From Spirochaetia bacterium (lineage in GTDB: Bacteria; Spirochaetota; Spirochaetia; CADAEX01): 55,383 nt of DNA. The translations under genes and the position numbers were made by a program. The DNA lies in NCBI GenBank assembly GCA_024402405.1, contig JAKSTW010000010.1, positions 1-55,383 of the forward strand. Direction: 5' to 3'. Under the pieces are notes generated by a model that did not search any database, was not told the DNA's origin, and worked only from the letters and a program-made list of their open reading frames with translations. Positions 22,105-55,383 of this stretch are shown here, piece after piece; the first letter of the stretch is position 1, and every line of letters begins with the position of its first letter.

Positions 22105-22131
22105 GCCAAAATGTATAAATTGAGGTGGAAT

Positions 22132-22968
22132 ATGAAAAAGATTTTATATATTGCAATTGCAGTATATGTACTGCTTTTGACTGGCTGTAAGTATGAATCG
22201 TATAATAATAATTATTATTACTATGGTAGCAAGGGTAACAATAATATAGGTGACAAAAAAATTGAGGGTGCATTGCCAGGAGTATTCAGCATAAGTGATG
22301 ATGAGAAAGTATGTTTCTCGAAAGGTAACCTGCAGGCCACATACAACGGCACCGGCTATGACTGGGGCTTTGCTGCGAATCAGTGGGATTATATAGGTGA
22401 TGCCCCTGGTAACACGACCATGAAAAACCAAAGCTCCGGAGATGTTGTGGACCTGTTTGGATGGACAGCCCGCGGAATGTATGATGACAAAGTCAAGGAG
22501 TATGGTATCAACATATCAACGGTTCCGGAAGCTTATGGCGTAGATCCTAATGATGAATGCTGTGACTGGGGAGAGACCATTGACAGTGAAGGGACATGGA
22601 GAATACTTACAATTGACGAGTGGAACTATCTGTTTAAAAATAATAAATATAGAAATGGGGGCTATGTATGCGGACATAGATGTGTGGTATTAGTGCCAGA
22701 TAGCTGGGATGCAGATATCCCTATTGCAGGTAGTTATGATGAAGAAAGTTGGGCAGTTGCAGAGGCCGCTGGAGCCGTATGTCTGCTTTCTGCTGAGTGG
22801 CGCGAGAGTTATGGTGTCCATGTCTGGAACCAAGGATACTACTGGTCTTCGTCTCCCAACGGTGTTTATGCATATTATCTGTTATTTGATAGTACTGGCG
22901 TCTACAGAGATTTGTTTTTTTCCCGAATCTATGGTCTGTCTGTGCGACTTGTGGCACCTTTGGAATGA
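22132..22968 (+). CDS. FISUMP-type surface lipoprotein with possible variable C-terminus
   Basis: 278 residues from ATG 22132, preceded by GAGGTGG. Lipobox LTGC, Cys 19, then an Asn/Tyr-rich linker. The main domain opens with PGVFSISDDEKVCFSKGNLQ, contains NQWDYIGD and DLFGWTARGMY, and ends with YYWSSSPNG...YGLSVRLV. That ending matches the C-type-lectin-like ends of FISUMP/DUF1566 proteins, a fold also used by targets of diversity-generating retroelements. Many codons in 22853-22940 end in T or C with differing first and second bases, as expected after adenine mutagenesis, but no template or reverse transcriptase is in the window. The gene is alone behind repeat copy B. Confidence 0.75.
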   Translation: MKKILYIAIAVYVLLLTGCKYESYNNNYYYYGSKGNNNIGDKKIEGALPGVFSISDDEKVCFSKGNLQATYNGTGYDWGFAANQWDYIGDAPGNTTMKNQSSGDVVDLFGWTARGMYDDKVKEYGINISTVPEAYGVDPNDECCDWGETIDSEGTWRILTIDEWNYLFKNNKYRNGGYVCGHRCVVLVPDSWDADIPIAGSYDEESWAVAEAAGAVCLLSAEWRESYGVHVWNQGYYWSSSPNGVYAYYLLFDSTGVYRDLFFSRIYGLSVRLVAPLE

Positions 22969-36223: not shown

Positions 36224-36697
36224 ATGGCCAGAAGAAATCGAATTATAAAAGATGGTGGAGCATATCATATAACGAACAGGATAAATACAAGAGAGAAATT
36301 GTTAGAACCTGCACATTTTAAACATCTGTTCTTGCATGTGCTTCTTGAGGTTAAGACAAAATATAGATTTCATATCAGAAACATCACTATAATGGACAAT
36401 CATGTTCATATTTTAATAAAAATGGAACATGGTCAAAGCCTGTCTAAGCTGATGCAATGGGTATTCTCTGTATTTGCAATGAGATATAACCATATATGCG
36501 GCAGGACTGGTCATCTGTGGGAAGGGCGTTTTAAAAGTGTGCTGTTGGAAGGAATTGCAGCATTTGCCAAGGTATTTGAGTATATATGTAATAATCCTGT
36601 AAAAGCTGGGATAACAGACACCGTGGAAACGTATGCATTTGGGTATTATAAACTTGTAACTAGCCCGGTGTATTACCGGCTGTTCTGTTTTGACTAG
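36224..36697 (+). CDS. REP-associated tyrosine transposase (RAYT, Y1 HUH family)
   Basis: 157 residues. Start of the type RRNRIIKDGGAYHITNRI. The HUH-like motif is His60-Val-His62 in MDNHVHILIK, and the catalytic Tyr120 lies in FEYICNNPVKAGI, the place of the YIHLNPVRAG motif. ATG has AAGGAG upstream. RAYTs are single-copy, usually non-mobile relatives of IS200/IS605 TnpA that act on short palindromic repeats scattered through the genome. Here the likely partner sequence is the 12-bp word found on both sides and ten times within about 16 kb. Confidence 0.92.
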   Translation: MARRNRIIKDGGAYHITNRINTREKLLEPAHFKHLFLHVLLEVKTKYRFHIRNITIMDNHVHILIKMEHGQSLSKLMQWVFSVFAMRYNHICGRTGHLWEGRFKSVLLEGIAAFAKVFEYICNNPVKAGITDTVETYAFGYYKLVTSPVYYRLFCFD

Positions 36698-41734: not shown

Positions 41735-42292
41735 GTGTATCCAGAATATTCTTATGTGTTTAAGCAGAAGGATGCACCACCATTGGATGAGAATATAAGA
41801 TTTGAGAACTGTTCAAAGTATAATCAAGAATTATATTTTTGGTATACTGGGGTTGATGAAGCTAATCCATTTAATTCAAAATTAATTCTGGAGCTATTCA
41901 CATCAAGACCATATAAAAAATTATATATAAAAGAATTTGGATATGAAAATAACGGTAAGAAAAAAGTTATAATAAAAAATAAAAATTATATACTACCAAT
42001 AAACGTCAAAGTTGATAAATTACCGATTTATGATTACTCTTGGCGTACTGCTAATGATTATTATATTATAGAGATTAGTCCGTGGAAAAAATATAGGGGA
42101 TTACGTCAGATGCCTTCTGTCAATTGGAGTAAAGTATTTCCTGATAAAAAACTCGGTGATAAATTTCCATTCCAAATGAAGGTTGTCTATCAGTTTGATG
42201 ATGAATCTGAGAAGACATTTATATTCGATTATGAAGTAGAAGTAAAGGAATACTATTGGATAAATCCACTAGTAAAGATGTTATTTTGGTAA
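41735..42292 (+). CDS. AT-rich protein of unknown function, probably membrane-anchored
   Basis: 185 residues from GTG 41735, but the same frame stays open upstream to 41642. That upstream part encodes a basic start and a membrane helix (RRKGCLTFILTFIGVILFVA). The best RBS, GGGAGG at 41630-41635, would serve an ATA codon at 41642. The true start is thus unsure. The mature part has NWSKVFPDKKLGDKFPF and many Tyr and Lys. No known family recognised. It heads a run of AT-rich small genes after the composition break. Confidence 0.6.
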   Translation: MYPEYSYVFKQKDAPPLDENIRFENCSKYNQELYFWYTGVDEANPFNSKLILELFTSRPYKKLYIKEFGYENNGKKKVIIKNKNYILPINVKVDKLPIYDYSWRTANDYYIIEISPWKKYRGLRQMPSVNWSKVFPDKKLGDKFPFQMKVVYQFDDESEKTFIFDYEVEVKEYYWINPLVKMLFW

Positions 42293-42381
42293 TGATAGTC
42301 GTTTCGTTGTTCTTTGAAAATGTTAATGTTGTAAAGAAATGTCTGAAAACACAAAACAGATTTGGATACTGGAGTGTAAAA

Positions 42382-42474
42382 ATGAAAAAATTGCTTGTTA
42401 AGTATTATGCCGTAATAAAGCATATAATTTTTATAATTATCTTTACGTATTTTTGTATTCGAACAATGTTTTGA
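42382..42474 (+). CDS. Small one-helix membrane protein, module part 1
   Basis: 30 residues, almost all one membrane helix after KKLLVKYYAVIKH. RBS GGAG eight bases before ATG. A decayed second copy lies at 43416-43514. Confidence 0.5.
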   Translation: MKKLLVKYYAVIKHIIFIIIFTYFCIRTMF

Positions 42475-42492
42475 TATTGAGGATTTTACTGT

Positions 42493-42813
42493 ATGATATA
42501 TACAATTTTTGCTTTACCATTGATTATATCCAGATTTATTTCTGAAAAGGATAAGAAAAAAGCAAAATATAATTTATTTTCCTGTTTCCCATTTCTGTTT
42601 TATATTACAATTGGCTTATATATTGGGATATATTCATTTAAATGGCCTTGGGGCTTTTACTTGCCAATTGCTTTTTATTCCATCTCCCGAATAGTTTGGG
42701 AGATTTTCACTATCAATTTAGGAATACGAGGAATAAAAATAGCATATGCTATCATGCTTTCAGGTCAGATTGTGTATTTTATGTTTTTCTTTTGGTATAC
42801 TTGTTTTGCATGA
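42493..42813 (+). CDS. Membrane protein of unknown function, module part 2
   Basis: 106 residues with about three or four membrane helices. Starts MIYTIFALPLIISRFISEKD and ends YAIMLSGQIVYFMFFFWYTC. The gene at 43529 has both ends but lacks the middle 60 or so residues. Family unknown. Confidence 0.6.
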   Translation: MIYTIFALPLIISRFISEKDKKKAKYNLFSCFPFLFYITIGLYIGIYSFKWPWGFYLPIAFYSISRIVWEIFTINLGIRGIKIAYAIMLSGQIVYFMFFFWYTCFA

Positions 42814-42882
42814 ATGGGCTAATATTGAGTTCTGGAAATCTAATTCTGAGAACTGGAAGAAAAAACATCAGGTTGGTAATAA

Positions 42883-43191
42883 ATGATACGTAAGTTTTTT
42901 CTGATATGTATGATGTTGCTTGGTATGCTTGCGTGTGTTTTGGTTTTATCAATATATGCTTCTTTTATGCCACATCTGCCCAAATATATTGTCAGACTCA
43001 TGGACTTTAAATTTATTATATTTGTTTCTGCAGTGGTGTTCTGGGCTATAGTCAGTGGTACTTTTGAAGAGAAATTTACAGGTGGAAAAGGCAAGAGATT
43101 TTTAGCGTATATGGTTTGTGTATTGATTGTATTAATTAGTTTGCTTACTATAGTTCATTTATTTGCTTTCGTATTTGTTTGGTTTGCATAG
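42883..43191 (+). CDS. Three-helix membrane protein of unknown function
   Basis: 102 residues with three predicted helices (LICMMLLGMLACVLVLSIYA; FIIFVSAVVFWAIVSG; LAYMVCVLIVLISLLTIV). The 43200 gene repeats its first helix in altered form. Family unknown. Confidence 0.6.
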   Translation: MIRKFFLICMMLLGMLACVLVLSIYASFMPHLPKYIVRLMDFKFIIFVSAVVFWAIVSGTFEEKFTGGKGKRFLAYMVCVLIVLISLLTIVHLFAFVFVWFA

Positions 43192-43199
43192 AGGAAAAA

Positions 43200-43304
43200 A
43201 TGATTTGGAATGTTTTTAGGCTTTGCATGGTTGTTGTTGGAACCTTTGCTTGTTTGTCTGCTATTTTTGTTAGTATAGTTACATTTTTAATGGGGTATTG
43301 GTGA
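43200..43304 (+). CDS. Short paralogue of the 42883 protein
   Basis: 34 residues with GAGG before ATG. MIWNVFRLCMVVVGTFACLS lines up with the start of the 42883 protein; the rest is gone. It may be a remnant or a real micro-protein. Confidence 0.45.
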   Translation: MIWNVFRLCMVVVGTFACLSAIFVSIVTFLMGYW

Positions 43305-43308
43305 AAAT

Positions 43309-43416
43309 ATGTGTACAAGAAAAGTATTTCAATATATTGTCTGCGGAGTTATTGTTGTGATTACAATTGGAACAATTTATTATTTTGGGCTTATTTTTAA
43401 AATGTTTATATTATAA
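43309..43416 (+). CDS. Possible 35-residue membrane micro-protein
   Basis: ATG 43309 to TAA 43416, one helix (FQYIVCGVIVVITIGTIYYF). No clear RBS. Listed because it fits the spacing and style of its neighbours. Confidence 0.35.
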   Translation: MCTRKVFQYIVCGVIVVITIGTIYYFGLIFKMFIL

Positions 43417-43514
43417 TAAAATTACTTTTTAAATATCCTGTAATAAAGCATATATTATTTCTGTTTATATTTTCGGTTTGGTACTATTTTTATTTCATAT
43501 TCCCTCATGTTTAA
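43416..43514 (+). pseudogene. Decayed second copy of module part 1
   Basis: In frame from an ATA where the 42382 copy has ATG: KLLFKYPVIKHILFLFIFSV, stop at 43512-43514. The stretch GTAATAAAGCATATA is identical in both copies. The lost start codon suggests it is no longer translated. Confidence 0.55.
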
Positions 43515-43528
43515 AGGATATTTGCTAT

Positions 43529-43681
43529 ATGATAATATATGCATTTTTTATTTTACCTTTTATTATATCAAAATTCATATCTGAGAAGAATATGAAAAAG
43601 GCTGTATATAATTATGCTATCATGCTTTCAGGTCAGGTTGTATATTTTATGTTTTTCTTTTGGTATACTTGTTTCGCATGA
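43529..43681 (+). CDS. Internally deleted second copy of module part 2
   Basis: 50 residues: MIIYAFFILPFIISKFISEK joined to YAIMLSGQVVYFMFFFWYTC. Compared with the 42493 gene about 60 residues are removed at a clean in-frame joint. The last 70 bases of both genes are nearly identical, so the duplication is recent. Confidence 0.55.
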   Translation: MIIYAFFILPFIISKFISEKNMKKAVYNYAIMLSGQVVYFMFFFWYTCFA

Positions 43682-43692
43682 AGGAGAATATT

Positions 43693-44376
43693 ATGAAGAA
43701 GCTGTTTATTATTATGTCATTATTTGTGGTTTCAAATCTATATGGAGAAACATCCATATTGAAGGCATTTCCAAAAGAAACACCAAATTTTGCAGAAGTG
43801 ATAAAAGAGTTAAATATAGATATCTCCAATGAAATTGAAGACGAAAAATTATCGGCACTGAATTATATTCTTAAAAACACTTTTGAAAACAATATCCATA
43901 AGATGCGCGGAGAAACAGGAAATAAGGTATATACAAAGGAAGACGGCCGTGAAGCAGTGTTTGACAAGAATGGCCAGCCAGTAGAAAATCCATGGAACAG
44001 AGGGAACTATAACTTTGCATCCTACAGCGAACCTGTACTTAAATTTACTTTAGATATCTGGCCATGGCTATATTATGGTAACAGTCCTGATGATCCGACG
44101 GACATAGAAGAAAGGTTCTATTACTATTTATTTGATCTTGATAATGGAATACAGTCGTATATTTTCTTAGAGGATAAAAGCATATTAGAAAAAATGAAAT
44201 ATTCTGAGCTGGTAGAAAATGAGAAAGTTGTTTATAAATTTTTTGAATATCTGATTTTCAATCCATCATATAAGCATAAGCTGGATGCCAAGGGTATAAA
44301 GTTATATCAGAAAAGTAAAGAGTCATATGTCAGATATTTCAAACAGTTGCTTGTCCTTGCAGGCTATAAGCTTTGA
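43693..44376 (+). CDS. Exported protein of unknown function
   Basis: 227 residues from ATG 43693, with AAGGAG upstream. Signal peptide of about 19 residues ending SNLYGE. Distinct central part: KVYTKEDGREAVFDKNGQPV, ENPWNRGNYNFASYSEP and WPWLYYGNSPDDPTD. From memory, the order Asp-Gly-x-Arg-Glu-Ala-Val-(Phe/Tyr)-Asp ... Asn-x-Gly-x-Tyr-Asn occurs in tails of secreted polymorphic toxins and effectors; I cannot confirm this here. It closes the AT-rich island before a terminator. Confidence 0.6.
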   Translation: MKKLFIIMSLFVVSNLYGETSILKAFPKETPNFAEVIKELNIDISNEIEDEKLSALNYILKNTFENNIHKMRGETGNKVYTKEDGREAVFDKNGQPVENPWNRGNYNFASYSEPVLKFTLDIWPWLYYGNSPDDPTDIEERFYYYLFDLDNGIQSYIFLEDKSILEKMKYSELVENEKVVYKFFEYLIFNPSYKHKLDAKGIKLYQKSKESYVRYFKQLLVLAGYKL

Positions 44377-52266: not shown

Positions 52267-52833
52267 ATGGATATAAAAGAACGTAAGAAAATATTGCGGA
52301 AAGAGATGAAACTGAAATTCAAAGCTCTGTCCCCGGATGACTTTTTCAGAAAGTCTGCCGGTGTGCTGAAACAGCTCCGGAAAATAGATCAGTTCATGGG
52401 GACAGAGCTGGTGTTGGCCTTTGTATCCATGAAAGACGAGATACAGACTGATGGTATTCTGAGATATGTACTGTCAGAGGGCAAAAGACTGGCAGTGCCT
52501 CTGGTGGTCGGTGATGATCTGGAATTCTATGAGATCAGAGATCTGGGGACAGAGCTTGCACCCGGTGCTTTCGGGATTCTGGAGCCTGTATCCGGATCGC
52601 ATAAACTTGATATTAAGACACTTGCTGAGATCGACAGTGTGATTCTGGTTCCTGGACTGGCTTTTGACAGGGATAATTACAGACTGGGACGCGGTAAGGG
52701 ATTTTATGACAGATTTTTCTCTCGCCTGCCGGAAAATGTGCTGAAGATTGGTATCGGCTATGATTTTCAGAAAGTGGATACAGTACCCAGAGAACAGCAT
52801 GACTGTCCTCTGGATATGATCATAACCGGTTAG
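52267..52833 (+). CDS. 5-formyltetrahydrofolate cyclo-ligase
   Basis: 188 residues. Family marks: N-terminal KKILRKEMKLK, FVSMKDEIQTDGIL, then ILVPGLAFDRDNYRLGRGKGFYDRFF with the GRGKGYYD-like nucleotide loop, and a closing DCPLDMIITG. It converts 5-formyl-THF to 5,10-methenyl-THF with ATP. Three copies of the 12-bp word lie in its 567 bases: 52323-52334 (minus), 52398-52409 and 52545-52556 (plus). Despite this the frame and family motifs are kept. It overlaps pncB, convergent, by 4 bases. Confidence 0.93.
   Translation: MDIKERKKILRKEMKLKFKALSPDDFFRKSAGVLKQLRKIDQFMGTELVLAFVSMKDEIQTDGILRYVLSEGKRLAVPLVVGDDLEFYEIRDLGTELAPGAFGILEPVSGSHKLDIKTLAEIDSVILVPGLAFDRDNYRLGRGKGFYDRFFSRLPENVLKIGIGYDFQKVDTVPREQHDCPLDMIITG
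52323..52334 (-). repeat. GGGGACAGAGCT in the cyclo-ligase gene (copy 1, inverted)
   Basis: Exact word on the non-coding strand; the gene reads it as Lys-Ala-Leu-Ser-Pro. Confidence 0.9.
52398..52409 (+). repeat. GGGGACAGAGCT in the cyclo-ligase gene (copy 2)
   Basis: Exact word on the coding strand, read as Met-Gly-Thr-Glu-Leu. With copy 1 it forms an inverted pair 63 bases apart. Confidence 0.9.
52545..52556 (+). repeat. GGGGACAGAGCT in the cyclo-ligase gene (copy 3)
   Basis: Exact word on the coding strand, in the same frame as copy 2 (Leu-Gly-Thr-Glu-Leu). Confidence 0.9.
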
Positions 52834-54020
52834 TGCGACATCCTCCAGTCTATGCATCTTTTAAGATATTCGGAGTAATTTGCATCACGGCATATGCTTT
52901 TGCCAGGGTCATCAGACAACTTAGCTACAGGCTGACCATTCACTGCCACTACTTTCATTACTATATTGAGCGGATTTATAGGACAGCCGGAAAGGTATGT
53001 GCCGATTCCGAATGCAACTTTTGCCTTACCCTTGAAATACTTGTTTATGGCTGCTGCTTTCTCAAAGTCCAGTGAATCGCTGAAAAGCAGTGTCTTTGTC
53101 ATCGGGTCGATTCCCAGTTTCTTATAATGGGCAATCATTTTTTCACCCCAGATGATAGGGTCTCCTGAATCATGCCTTACACCGCTGAAAAGTGTGGCGA
53201 ATGTGAGCTGGAAGTCCCGGAGGAAACAGTCTGTTGTTATGGTGTCTGTCAGTGCTATTCCATTGAGGATACCGTATTCTTTCACCCAGCTGTCCAGTGC
53301 GAATTTGTTGCTGTATGCCGGGTTGTACTCGTGGTGTCCCTGTCCTACAGTCATGATATATTCATGTGCAAGAGTTCCGGTGGCCTTGATATCATATTTC
53401 TTTGCCAGATATACATTGCTGGTACCTATGAAACCAGGCATTTTTTCCTCTTTGAAAGTTCTGATGAGGTAATCCTGAGCTTCGAATGAAAGTCTGCGGC
53501 GTGCTCCGAACTCAGAGAAAGTGCCGATATCGTATATTCCGCTTTTTATCTGTTCTATAAGTATGGCTGTCTTTTCCTTGAACTTCCTGAAAAGCTCATC
53601 ATAATCAGATGACATGCGGTAATATACTTCGTTTACTATGGACAGAATAGGGATCTCATAAGGTGAGGTGTTGCCCCAGGTTCCCTTGGTCTCGATGTTC
53701 AGTCCGCATGGTGCATTGTCGTCGACGAAAATCTCCTCTTCCCTAGGATGCCAGAATCTCAGATAGTCACAGTAATTGTTGTGGATCCATATATTGGCTT
53801 TGGGAAGCCACTTAAGCTCATCCTCTGTGAAACGGAGACCGCAGTAGAGATGTATCTGCCTTTTTATCTCCTCTACCATTTCTGGTGTGAATTTTACTCC
53901 CTGGTTCCGGCATTTGAACGCCCAAGTTGCATGATCACCGCTGAATTGATGGAAAATAGCCTGGCCCATGGAAAACTTATACATATCTGTATCTAATAAA
54001 GATTTTATGATCTGTTCCAT
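52830..54020 (-). CDS. pncB: Nicotinate phosphoribosyltransferase
   Basis: 396 residues from ATG 54020; upstream in-frame codons add no conserved sequence. SLLDTDMYKFSMGQAIFHQF is the family start. EFGARRRLSFEAQ, GTSNVYLAKKYDIKATGTLAHE and FSGVRHDSGDPI form the phosphoribosyl site. It makes nicotinate mononucleotide for NAD salvage. It lies 71 bases downstream of the threonine dehydratase gene, on the same strand. Confidence 0.95.
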   Translation of the reverse strand: MEQIIKSLLDTDMYKFSMGQAIFHQFSGDHATWAFKCRNQGVKFTPEMVEEIKRQIHLYCGLRFTEDELKWLPKANIWIHNNYCDYLRFWHPREEEIFVDDNAPCGLNIETKGTWGNTSPYEIPILSIVNEVYYRMSSDYDELFRKFKEKTAILIEQIKSGIYDIGTFSEFGARRRLSFEAQDYLIRTFKEEKMPGFIGTSNVYLAKKYDIKATGTLAHEYIMTVGQGHHEYNPAYSNKFALDSWVKEYGILNGIALTDTITTDCFLRDFQLTFATLFSGVRHDSGDPIIWGEKMIAHYKKLGIDPMTKTLLFSDSLDFEKAAAINKYFKGKAKVAFGIGTYLSGCPINPLNIVMKVVAVNGQPVAKLSDDPGKSICRDANYSEYLKRCIDWRMSH

Positions 54021-54090
54021 TCTGATACCTGCTTGTTGATGTTTTTGATAATAAATATCGGCATAAAGGGGGCTGCCCTTTATGCTTGCA

Positions 54091-55149
54091 TTACTTTCTG
54101 CCAAGGATGCCGTTGAGTTTGTCAGGATCTATGTTTCCGCCGGAGATGACGCATACGATTTTCTGTCCGTTTCCTGCTATCTTGCCGTTCAGCACTGCTG
54201 CAGCAGAAAGTGCTCCAGCTCCTTCGGCGGTCACATTGCACTCATTGTAGAGACGGCGTATTGCATCTGCTATCTGGTCTTCAGTTACAGTCACCATCTC
54301 ATCCACATATTTCTGGCATATTTCAAATGTGATGTCGCCAGGTACGCTCACTGCAGTTCCGTCCGCAAGTGTTGAGATGTTATCGCGTTTTACGATTTTT
54401 CCTGCTGCTCTGGATCTGACCATGGCATCGGATGCATCTGACTGCACACCGATGATGCGGCATGAAGGATTGAGGGCCTTGATGGCAGAGGCTATTCCTG
54501 AGATAAGTCCGCCGCCACCCATAGGAACTACGACCACGTCAGCATCCGGCAGCTGGTGCATGATCTCCCATCCGATGGTTCCCTGGCCTGCGATCACATC
54601 CAGGTCATTGTATGGTGCGACATATACTGCGTCATGTTCTTTCTGATATGCCAGTGCTGCTTCCTGTGATGCATTGAAGTCACCGTCCACCAGAATTGCC
54701 TCAGCGTTTCTGTAAGAGCGGACAGCATTTACTTTTTTAGCAGGTGCTGATGCCGGCATGAAGATCTTGGCTGGAATGTTGAATTTTTCGGCTGAGTATG
54801 CCACGCCCTGGGCATGGTTTCCTGAAGAGCATGTCACCACTCCCTTCTGTGCCTGTTCCGGCGTGAGCTGGCTCATCTTGTAGTAGGCGCCGCGGATCTT
54901 GAAGGCACCTATTATCTGCTGTGTCTCAAGCTTCAGATAAACCTGATTCTCTCCTGAGAAAGATGGAGCCTCCACCAGATCTGAGCATTTTGCTACTCCG
55001 TCAAGAACCTGCACTGCATTGAATATTTTGTCAATTGTAACTTCATTCTGGCTGCTCTGGCATGTGGATGGCTGTGTTGAGCAGCATCCTGTGAGCATCA
55101 TGAATGACAGCATTAAGACAGACATGACTGTCATGATTTTTGTTTTCAT
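54091..55149 (-). CDS. Threonine/serine dehydratase with a lipoprotein signal peptide
   Basis: 352 residues. From about residue 38 on it is a normal fold-type II PLP enzyme: KLETQQIIGAFKIRGAYYKM with the PLP-binding Lys84, SSGNHAQGVAYSA, VVPMGGGGLISGIASA, and AEGAGALSAAA. There is no ACT-type regulatory domain, as in catabolic (TdcB-like) enzymes. In front sits a clear lipoprotein signal, MKTKIMTVMSVLMLSFMM then LTGC with Cys22, followed by a Ser/Gln-rich linker. RBS AAGGAAG lies before this ATG, and no other start fits better. Export of such an enzyme is very unusual; see findings. Confidence 0.85.
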   Translation of the reverse strand: MKTKIMTVMSVLMLSFMMLTGCCSTQPSTCQSSQNEVTIDKIFNAVQVLDGVAKCSDLVEAPSFSGENQVYLKLETQQIIGAFKIRGAYYKMSQLTPEQAQKGVVTCSSGNHAQGVAYSAEKFNIPAKIFMPASAPAKKVNAVRSYRNAEAILVDGDFNASQEAALAYQKEHDAVYVAPYNDLDVIAGQGTIGWEIMHQLPDADVVVVPMGGGGLISGIASAIKALNPSCRIIGVQSDASDAMVRSRAAGKIVKRDNISTLADGTAVSVPGDITFEICQKYVDEMVTVTEDQIADAIRRLYNECNVTAEGAGALSAAAVLNGKIAGNGQKIVCVISGGNIDPDKLNGILGRK

Positions 55150-55196
55150 ATTTTACTTCCTTAAATAAAGAATAAAGCCATTGAAATTTCCATCTA

Positions 55197-55225
55197 GGTA
55201 TATCACCAAAGAATTAATATTGCAA
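55197..55225 (-). promoter_or_regulatory. Possible promoter of the threonine dehydratase gene
   Basis: On the minus strand TTGCAA (55225-55220), 17 bases, TATACC (55202-55197). Partial match only. Confidence 0.4.
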
Positions 55226-55244
55226 TGGAAAAATATGTATGACG

Positions 55245-55383
55245 ATGTATTTGTTTTCTCTGATCCGGATAGCGGACTGGTTCATGCAGGTTTACGGCAG
55301 TCTCCGGGGGCATGACCTGCTAGACGACGGCATAGTGAGGGCTTTCGACTCCCTGATGGAGGAGAACCCGGAGCTGGCTGAGC
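55245..55383 (+). CDS. GC-rich gene fragment running off the window
   Basis: From ATG 55245 the frame is open to the edge (46 codons): SLIRIADWFMQVYGSLRG, LLDDGIVRAFDSLMEENPE. GC content jumps from about 55260 onward, like the 41399-41560 piece. No RBS is evident and the real start may be elsewhere. Family not recognised. Confidence 0.4.
   Translation, partial: MYLFSLIRIADWFMQVYGSLRGHDLLDDGIVRAFDSLMEENPELAE

Follow-up and report, generated by a model that had tools for sequence, protein, structure and literature searches.

Textbooks place both threonine dehydratase and RidA in the cytosol, where RidA protects PLP-dependent enzymes from damage. The enamine/imine that leaves threonine dehydratase is hydrolysed by RidA; a survey of the Rid family reported its clustering with threonine dehydratase but contains no mention of signal peptides or of the periplasm (PMC4433059). 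An active periplasmic PLP-dependent amino-acid enzyme is on record, the racemase Alr of P. putida (PMC6034422); the PLP cofactor is therefore obtainable in the periplasm. A search of the open-access PMC literature yielded no earlier description of a threonine dehydratase or RidA that is periplasmic or a lipoprotein. A publication on a RidA plus a signal peptide (PMC9537276) was considered as a precedent and rejected, its RidA belonging to a pathway described as cytoplasmic. The enzyme families treated here are known; as far as the open-access literature shows, their compartment and the exported RidA pairing are undescribed.

The dehydratase gene was found on the minus strand of the analyzed stretch of 55,383 nucleotides (hereafter, the window) at positions 54091–55149, as an uninterrupted frame of 352 codons that begins with the ATG at 55149; the opposite strand contains many stops over the same interval. 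The open reading frame, the profile and the comparison with relatives identify its 352-aa product as a putative lipoprotein threonine/serine dehydratase. An SD-like AAGGAAG (55156–55162, minus strand, by direct reading) was located 6 nt upstream of the ATG, in agreement with the first-pass annotation, which had reported one uninterrupted frame with its own RBS. A terminator-like hairpin (54061–54085, minus strand, from the sequence) immediately follows the stop codon, and thus the gene appears to terminate its own transcript. The downstream neighbour on the same strand (52830–54020) is a nicotinate phosphoribosyltransferase-like gene, named by eye. Upstream, the contig ends 234 bp from the dehydratase gene (55150–55383), inside a short ORF (MYLFSLIRIADWFMQVYGSLRG...), which is transposase-like by eye yet had no Pfam family match. 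Elsewhere in the window, ORF 36224–36697 (start MARRNRIIKDGGAYHITNRINTREKLL) resembles by eye a REP-associated (Y1) transposase, and the stretch 41735–44376, with genes at a G+C of 0.29–0.33 versus 0.45 for the window, was probably acquired.

The catalytic domain (residues 38–352; 54094–55038, minus strand) showed the PALP profile and the TdcB fold, without a C-terminal ACT domain. The Pfam PALP match covered residues 57–337 with E=3e-79 and a score of 266.9 bits, the cut-off being 35. The GAFKIRGA motif with Lys84, the PLP Schiff-base lysine (54898–54900, minus strand; direct reading, invariant column), SSGNHAQG (residues 108–115) and GGGGL, the glycine-rich PLP phosphate loop (residues 211–215; 54505–54519, minus strand; motif reading and alignment), were all present, which bears out the complete PLP-dependent threonine/serine dehydratase with Lys84 and a glycine loop described previously. 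The catalytic motif positions were invariant across 24 aligned sequences, except for position 109. The closest solved homologue by both sequence and fold was TdcB (2gn0, 43% identity), and the model agreed with the TdcB fold at TM values of 0.86–0.94. Judging from these matches, the protein is a member of the TdcB/IlvA threonine–serine ammonia-lyase superfamily (fold type II PLP). Its scores with the NCBIfam models TdcB (NF006389, 338.9 of 453 bits required) and ilvA_1Cterm (TIGR01127, 358.3 of 378.75 bits required) were below the curated cut-offs; by these scores, it is therefore a sister subfamily of TdcB/ilvA_1Cterm and no equivalog.

The same low scores, together with the long stem branch of its clade, would fit an exported protein which is no longer a catalyst or which acts on another substrate, such as threo-3-hydroxyaspartate or another beta-hydroxy amino acid; human serine racemase itself favours hydroxyaspartate in elimination (PMC6424897). 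However, the catalytic motifs are all intact, the closest solved homologue is TdcB, and models of hydroxyaspartate enzymes scored below the threonine ones, so that a lost or altered activity seems unlikely to us.

The N-terminus of the dehydratase consisted of a Lys-bearing n-region (MKTK), a hydrophobic stretch and the lipobox M-L-T-G^C22, and fitted both PS51257 and a stricter lipoprotein pattern. The predicted type II signal peptide MKTKIMTVMSVLMLSFMMLTG (residues 1–21; 55087–55149, minus strand) was delimited by pattern match and hydropathy. It is followed by the lipobox Cys22 (55084–55086, minus strand), the residue predicted by the pattern to be lipidated, and by a polar linker or tether CSTQPSTCQSSQNEV (residues 23–37; 55039–55083, minus strand) of low model confidence up to residue 33. 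In the AlphaFold2 model, residues 1–33 were disordered, as expected for a signal plus tether, and the structure was confident from residue ~38 onwards. A signal peptidase II (LspA) gene was found in the genome by a PF01252 match above the cut-off. Both the textbook LTGC lipobox and the linker preceding the enzyme, pointed out in the first-pass annotation, were thus confirmed. As for the enzyme being "fused to" a signal, the signal peptide is indeed present; it is better described as an acquisition that replaced the N-terminal Met. Of the 5369 start codons of the window, 4 fitted the stricter lipoprotein pattern. At least two of these 4 belong to plausible genes, namely the dehydratase and ORF 22111–22968 (MKKILYIAIAVYVLLLTGCKYES); the latter has the same LTGC lipobox and serves as a within-window control for the signal.

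No ATG, GTG or TTG start codons were found between residues 19 and 46 of the dehydratase. The next possible start, GTG47, lies inside the first helix, which starting there would remove, and the starting Met of cytosolic relatives aligns with residue ~36–37. Because of the absence of start codons between residues 19 and 46, a cytosolic form as in the relatives cannot be made from this gene. These data support the prediction of an exported lipoprotein, as it was originally read.

The four closest relatives found were 58–66% identical to the dehydratase, all with export signals. The closest homologue in the genome collection was L033 from a Lentisphaeria MAG (horse feces, 66% identity); L141, L142, L143 and L144 were found by searching around the genome of L033. 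L141 and L142 had 73% identity to L033, and no further clade members were found among 137 genomes from the order to which the L143 genome belongs. Among viral contigs, no relative of the dehydratase was found, and the dehydratases found on plasmids were all less than 60% identical to it. By reading, the Lentisphaeria-type proteins L033, L141 and L142 possess type I (Sec) signals (MKRFSFAVFSLVLWTFAALLPLEGAEN, MKRVACFFLLLQLWVFPAVPVLSGAEK and MKRFSWFALLGSLFLVFTLPLAARAEN, respectively), L143 has its own lipobox (MRFLNFFALVLLTLVFSGCRT), and L144, the basal fifth relative, has no signal. Relatives at ~45–50% identity were all ordinary cytosolic enzymes. The first-pass annotation had suggested looking for orthologues with the same signal and had held that export would be contradicted if all relatives began at a Met within that domain of the enzyme; the four closest ones carry signals, a lipobox in L143 and a Sec signal in the other three. 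Altogether, a signal-like N-terminus was present in 5 of the 154 dehydratases read (the window protein, L033, L141, L142 and L143), in addition to one spurious extension (L044), which was rejected as a chance in-frame upstream extension. The lipoprotein dehydratase of genome G541 (L173, 8591–9820) has a linker of ~65 residues from lipobox to enzyme, in a genome without a RidA match.

An idle signal, with the protein remaining in the cytosol or perhaps anchored to the membrane and facing inward, might be proposed since folding of a PLP enzyme in the cytosol might compete with its export by Sec. This would, however, require the two signal types of the relatives and the lipobox of the partner RidA to be idle as well, and it is at odds with the lack of an internal start codon; we consider it very unlikely, and export of the dehydratase remains the preferred reading.

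The sole RidA of the genome is encoded on contig 34, separate from the dehydratase contig, and is also a predicted lipoprotein (MKKAIIVLMCVSVLFILSG^CCTSAKEVIST..., lipobox LSG^C). It scored 167 bits with TIGR00004 against a cut-off of 106. By direct reading, the PARS arginine in YPARSAMEV, which we take to be the essential arginine, is kept. In both lipoproteins, a second Cys directly follows that of the lipobox. We read 134 RidA loci, including some duplicates; a believable signal was present only in the copy of the window genome and in fusions; the signal-like start of one more RidA (L247) was rejected as a chance in-frame upstream extension.

The fusions are L033, L141 and L142, in which the dehydratase is followed by an in-frame C-terminal RidA domain (PF01042, 6.9e-43 in L033), the only RidA match in each of the three genomes. 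Since RidA hydrolyses the enamine/imine of threonine dehydratase, having the two joined is in itself an argument for functional dehydratases in these proteins. The genomes of L143 (lipoprotein) and L144 (no signal) had no RidA match; therefore, the pair is not universal. Of 79 loci encoding close cytosolic dehydratases, 55 had RidA immediately downstream on the same strand; the partnership is thus of long standing, and the exported pair and the fusion continue it. With moderate support, the RidA tree grouped the copy of the window genome with RidAs from its own class and put the fused domains close to those of their own order. Because the tree splits the two, the exported pairing was probably assembled twice; descent of the genome's RidA from a fused one was rejected by the same moderately supported grouping. 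Directly downstream of an exported dehydratase–RidA fusion, a thioredoxin-like PF13899 protein with a signal-like N-terminus is encoded (L171:9633-10103, G515).

From the sequence data, we regard it as likely that the dehydratase and RidA lipoproteins constitute one extracytoplasmic Ser/Thr deamination module. The dehydratase would leave the cytoplasm through Sec, receive its lipid on Cys22 from Lgt and be cleaved by LspA; it would presumably fold and load PLP outside the inner membrane and act there on a tether of ~15 flexible residues. Its beta-elimination would convert Ser/Thr to the enamine/imine of pyruvate/2-oxobutyrate, and the lipoprotein RidA, probably residing on the same membrane, would hydrolyse the imine to the 2-oxo acid and ammonia. 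Export, lipidation, cleavage, beta-elimination and RidA hydrolysis are predicted from the known families. In the Lentisphaeria-type relatives, the same module would be represented by the single dehydratase–RidA polypeptide. A likely use would be the catabolism of peptide-released Ser/Thr in the gut, with uptake of oxo acids and local release of ammonia. On balance, we also lean towards a reading in which the beta-elimination of amino acids and the control of its damage were relocated together across the inner membrane on at least two occasions: as the Sec-exported fusion in the Lentisphaeria type, and as a pair of separate lipoproteins in the window genome, with Ser/Thr deaminated and free enamine stress managed in the envelope. 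The gene that lies 36 bp after the lipoprotein RidA (L170:1900-3048, G000:C34) encodes a C45 autoproteolytic acyltransferase/hydrolase (NF040521, PF03417), which has a hydrophobic segment at its N-terminus and had no match in the six congeners. Acting on N-acyl compounds outside the cell, this enzyme may liberate amino acids and thereby feed the module.

Position 109, the exception among the catalytic motif positions, deserves separate consideration. By alignment, Ser109 (54823–54825, minus strand) occupies the site of Ser84 in human serine racemase, the re-face base that this enzyme requires for racemisation (PMC6424897). Near relatives have nearly all Ala at this position, the exceptions within the clade being exactly the two lipoproteins, the window protein and L143. 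This makes racemisation to D-serine a rival reading to be taken seriously: the exported enzyme would be mainly a racemase, providing D-serine, e.g., for the cell wall or signalling, with dehydration as a side reaction, and periplasmic PLP racemases are a known kind of enzyme. However, the three RidA-fused sister proteins keep Ala, and RidA handles the products of a dehydratase; moreover, the best family, fold and sequence matches are all threonine ammonia-lyases. Ser at this site is necessary for racemisation, yet insufficient, and is also found in more distant dehydratase-like proteins of unassigned activity. A predominantly racemising enzyme thus appears improbable, and deamination of Ser/Thr is retained as its predicted role.

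In the trees of both the full proteins and the catalytic core, the window dehydratase formed a 100/100 clade with L033, L141, L142, L143 and L144, in which it was sister to the three fusions with type I signals (support of 99/96–97). The clade, devoid of ACT domains, branched off on a long stem, next to cytosolic enzymes with an ACT domain from Clostridia and other groups. The tree was rebuilt on the catalytic core because full-length alignment of RidA with ACT domains could bias it; the result was unchanged, and only the branch separating L143 and the other exported proteins from L144 was weakened, to 88/70. The cysteinyl-tRNA synthetase encoded in the window matched 3sp1, a Borrelia protein, with a score more than 100 bits above that of the next entry, and the window organism may accordingly be a spirochaete. 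Six congeners of this organism encoded neither a dehydratase of this family nor RidA. In these congeners, the block around the nicotinate phosphoribosyltransferase-like gene is kept, with a different gene in place of the dehydratase. The absence of the dehydratase and the different gene beside the same block indicate that the dehydratase gene probably came by transfer.

The absence from congeners, the occupation of another gene's place and the distance of 234 bp to the contig end could also point to an artefact of assembly or annotation, i.e., a chimeric contig end or a contaminant. Against this, the gene is a single frame with its own SD and terminator, its G+C content (0.49) and third-position G+C content (0.51) are like those of the neighbouring genes, and genome contamination is given as 0.06%. 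Furthermore, the second lipoprotein of the same pathway is encoded on another contig, and homologues of the same anatomy occur in independent assemblies. An artefact is hence extremely improbable, and we treat the gene as a genuine, probably transferred one.

As genomic evidence that a reaction has been relocated, linked export signals on a pair of enzymes from the same pathway are unusually good. The exported pair would put steps of amino-acid fermentation in the envelope, raising the questions of the source of PLP, the targets of 2-aminoacrylate there, and whether the gain lies in oxo acids, local ammonia or an edge over neighbours.

With TdcB (2gn0), the window protein shares the fold, the length of the catalytic domain, the PLP lysine, the SxGNHAQG and GGGGL motifs and the lack of an ACT domain. 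In contrast to cytosolic TdcB, it has a type II signal peptide, a lipobox and a tether, and Ser instead of Ala at the re-face position. The IlvA-type enzymes (TIGR01127) are its nearest cytosolic relatives, with 45–51% identity; they differ in being cytosolic and ~400 aa long and in possessing one C-terminal ACT domain, absent from the window protein. The broad-spectrum racemases Alr (P. putida) and BsrV (V. cholerae) are likewise PLP-dependent amino-acid enzymes of the periplasm; however, they are fold type III racemases, unrelated to the fold type II lyase described here, and neither is known to have a lipid anchor. Finally, the RidA of this genome passes the cut-offs of both family models (PF01042 and TIGR00004) and corresponds to the Rid family as the functional partner of threonine dehydratase; whereas the other RidA homologues read are cytosolic, this copy bears a lipobox, and in the sister fusions RidA forms an exported C-terminal domain.
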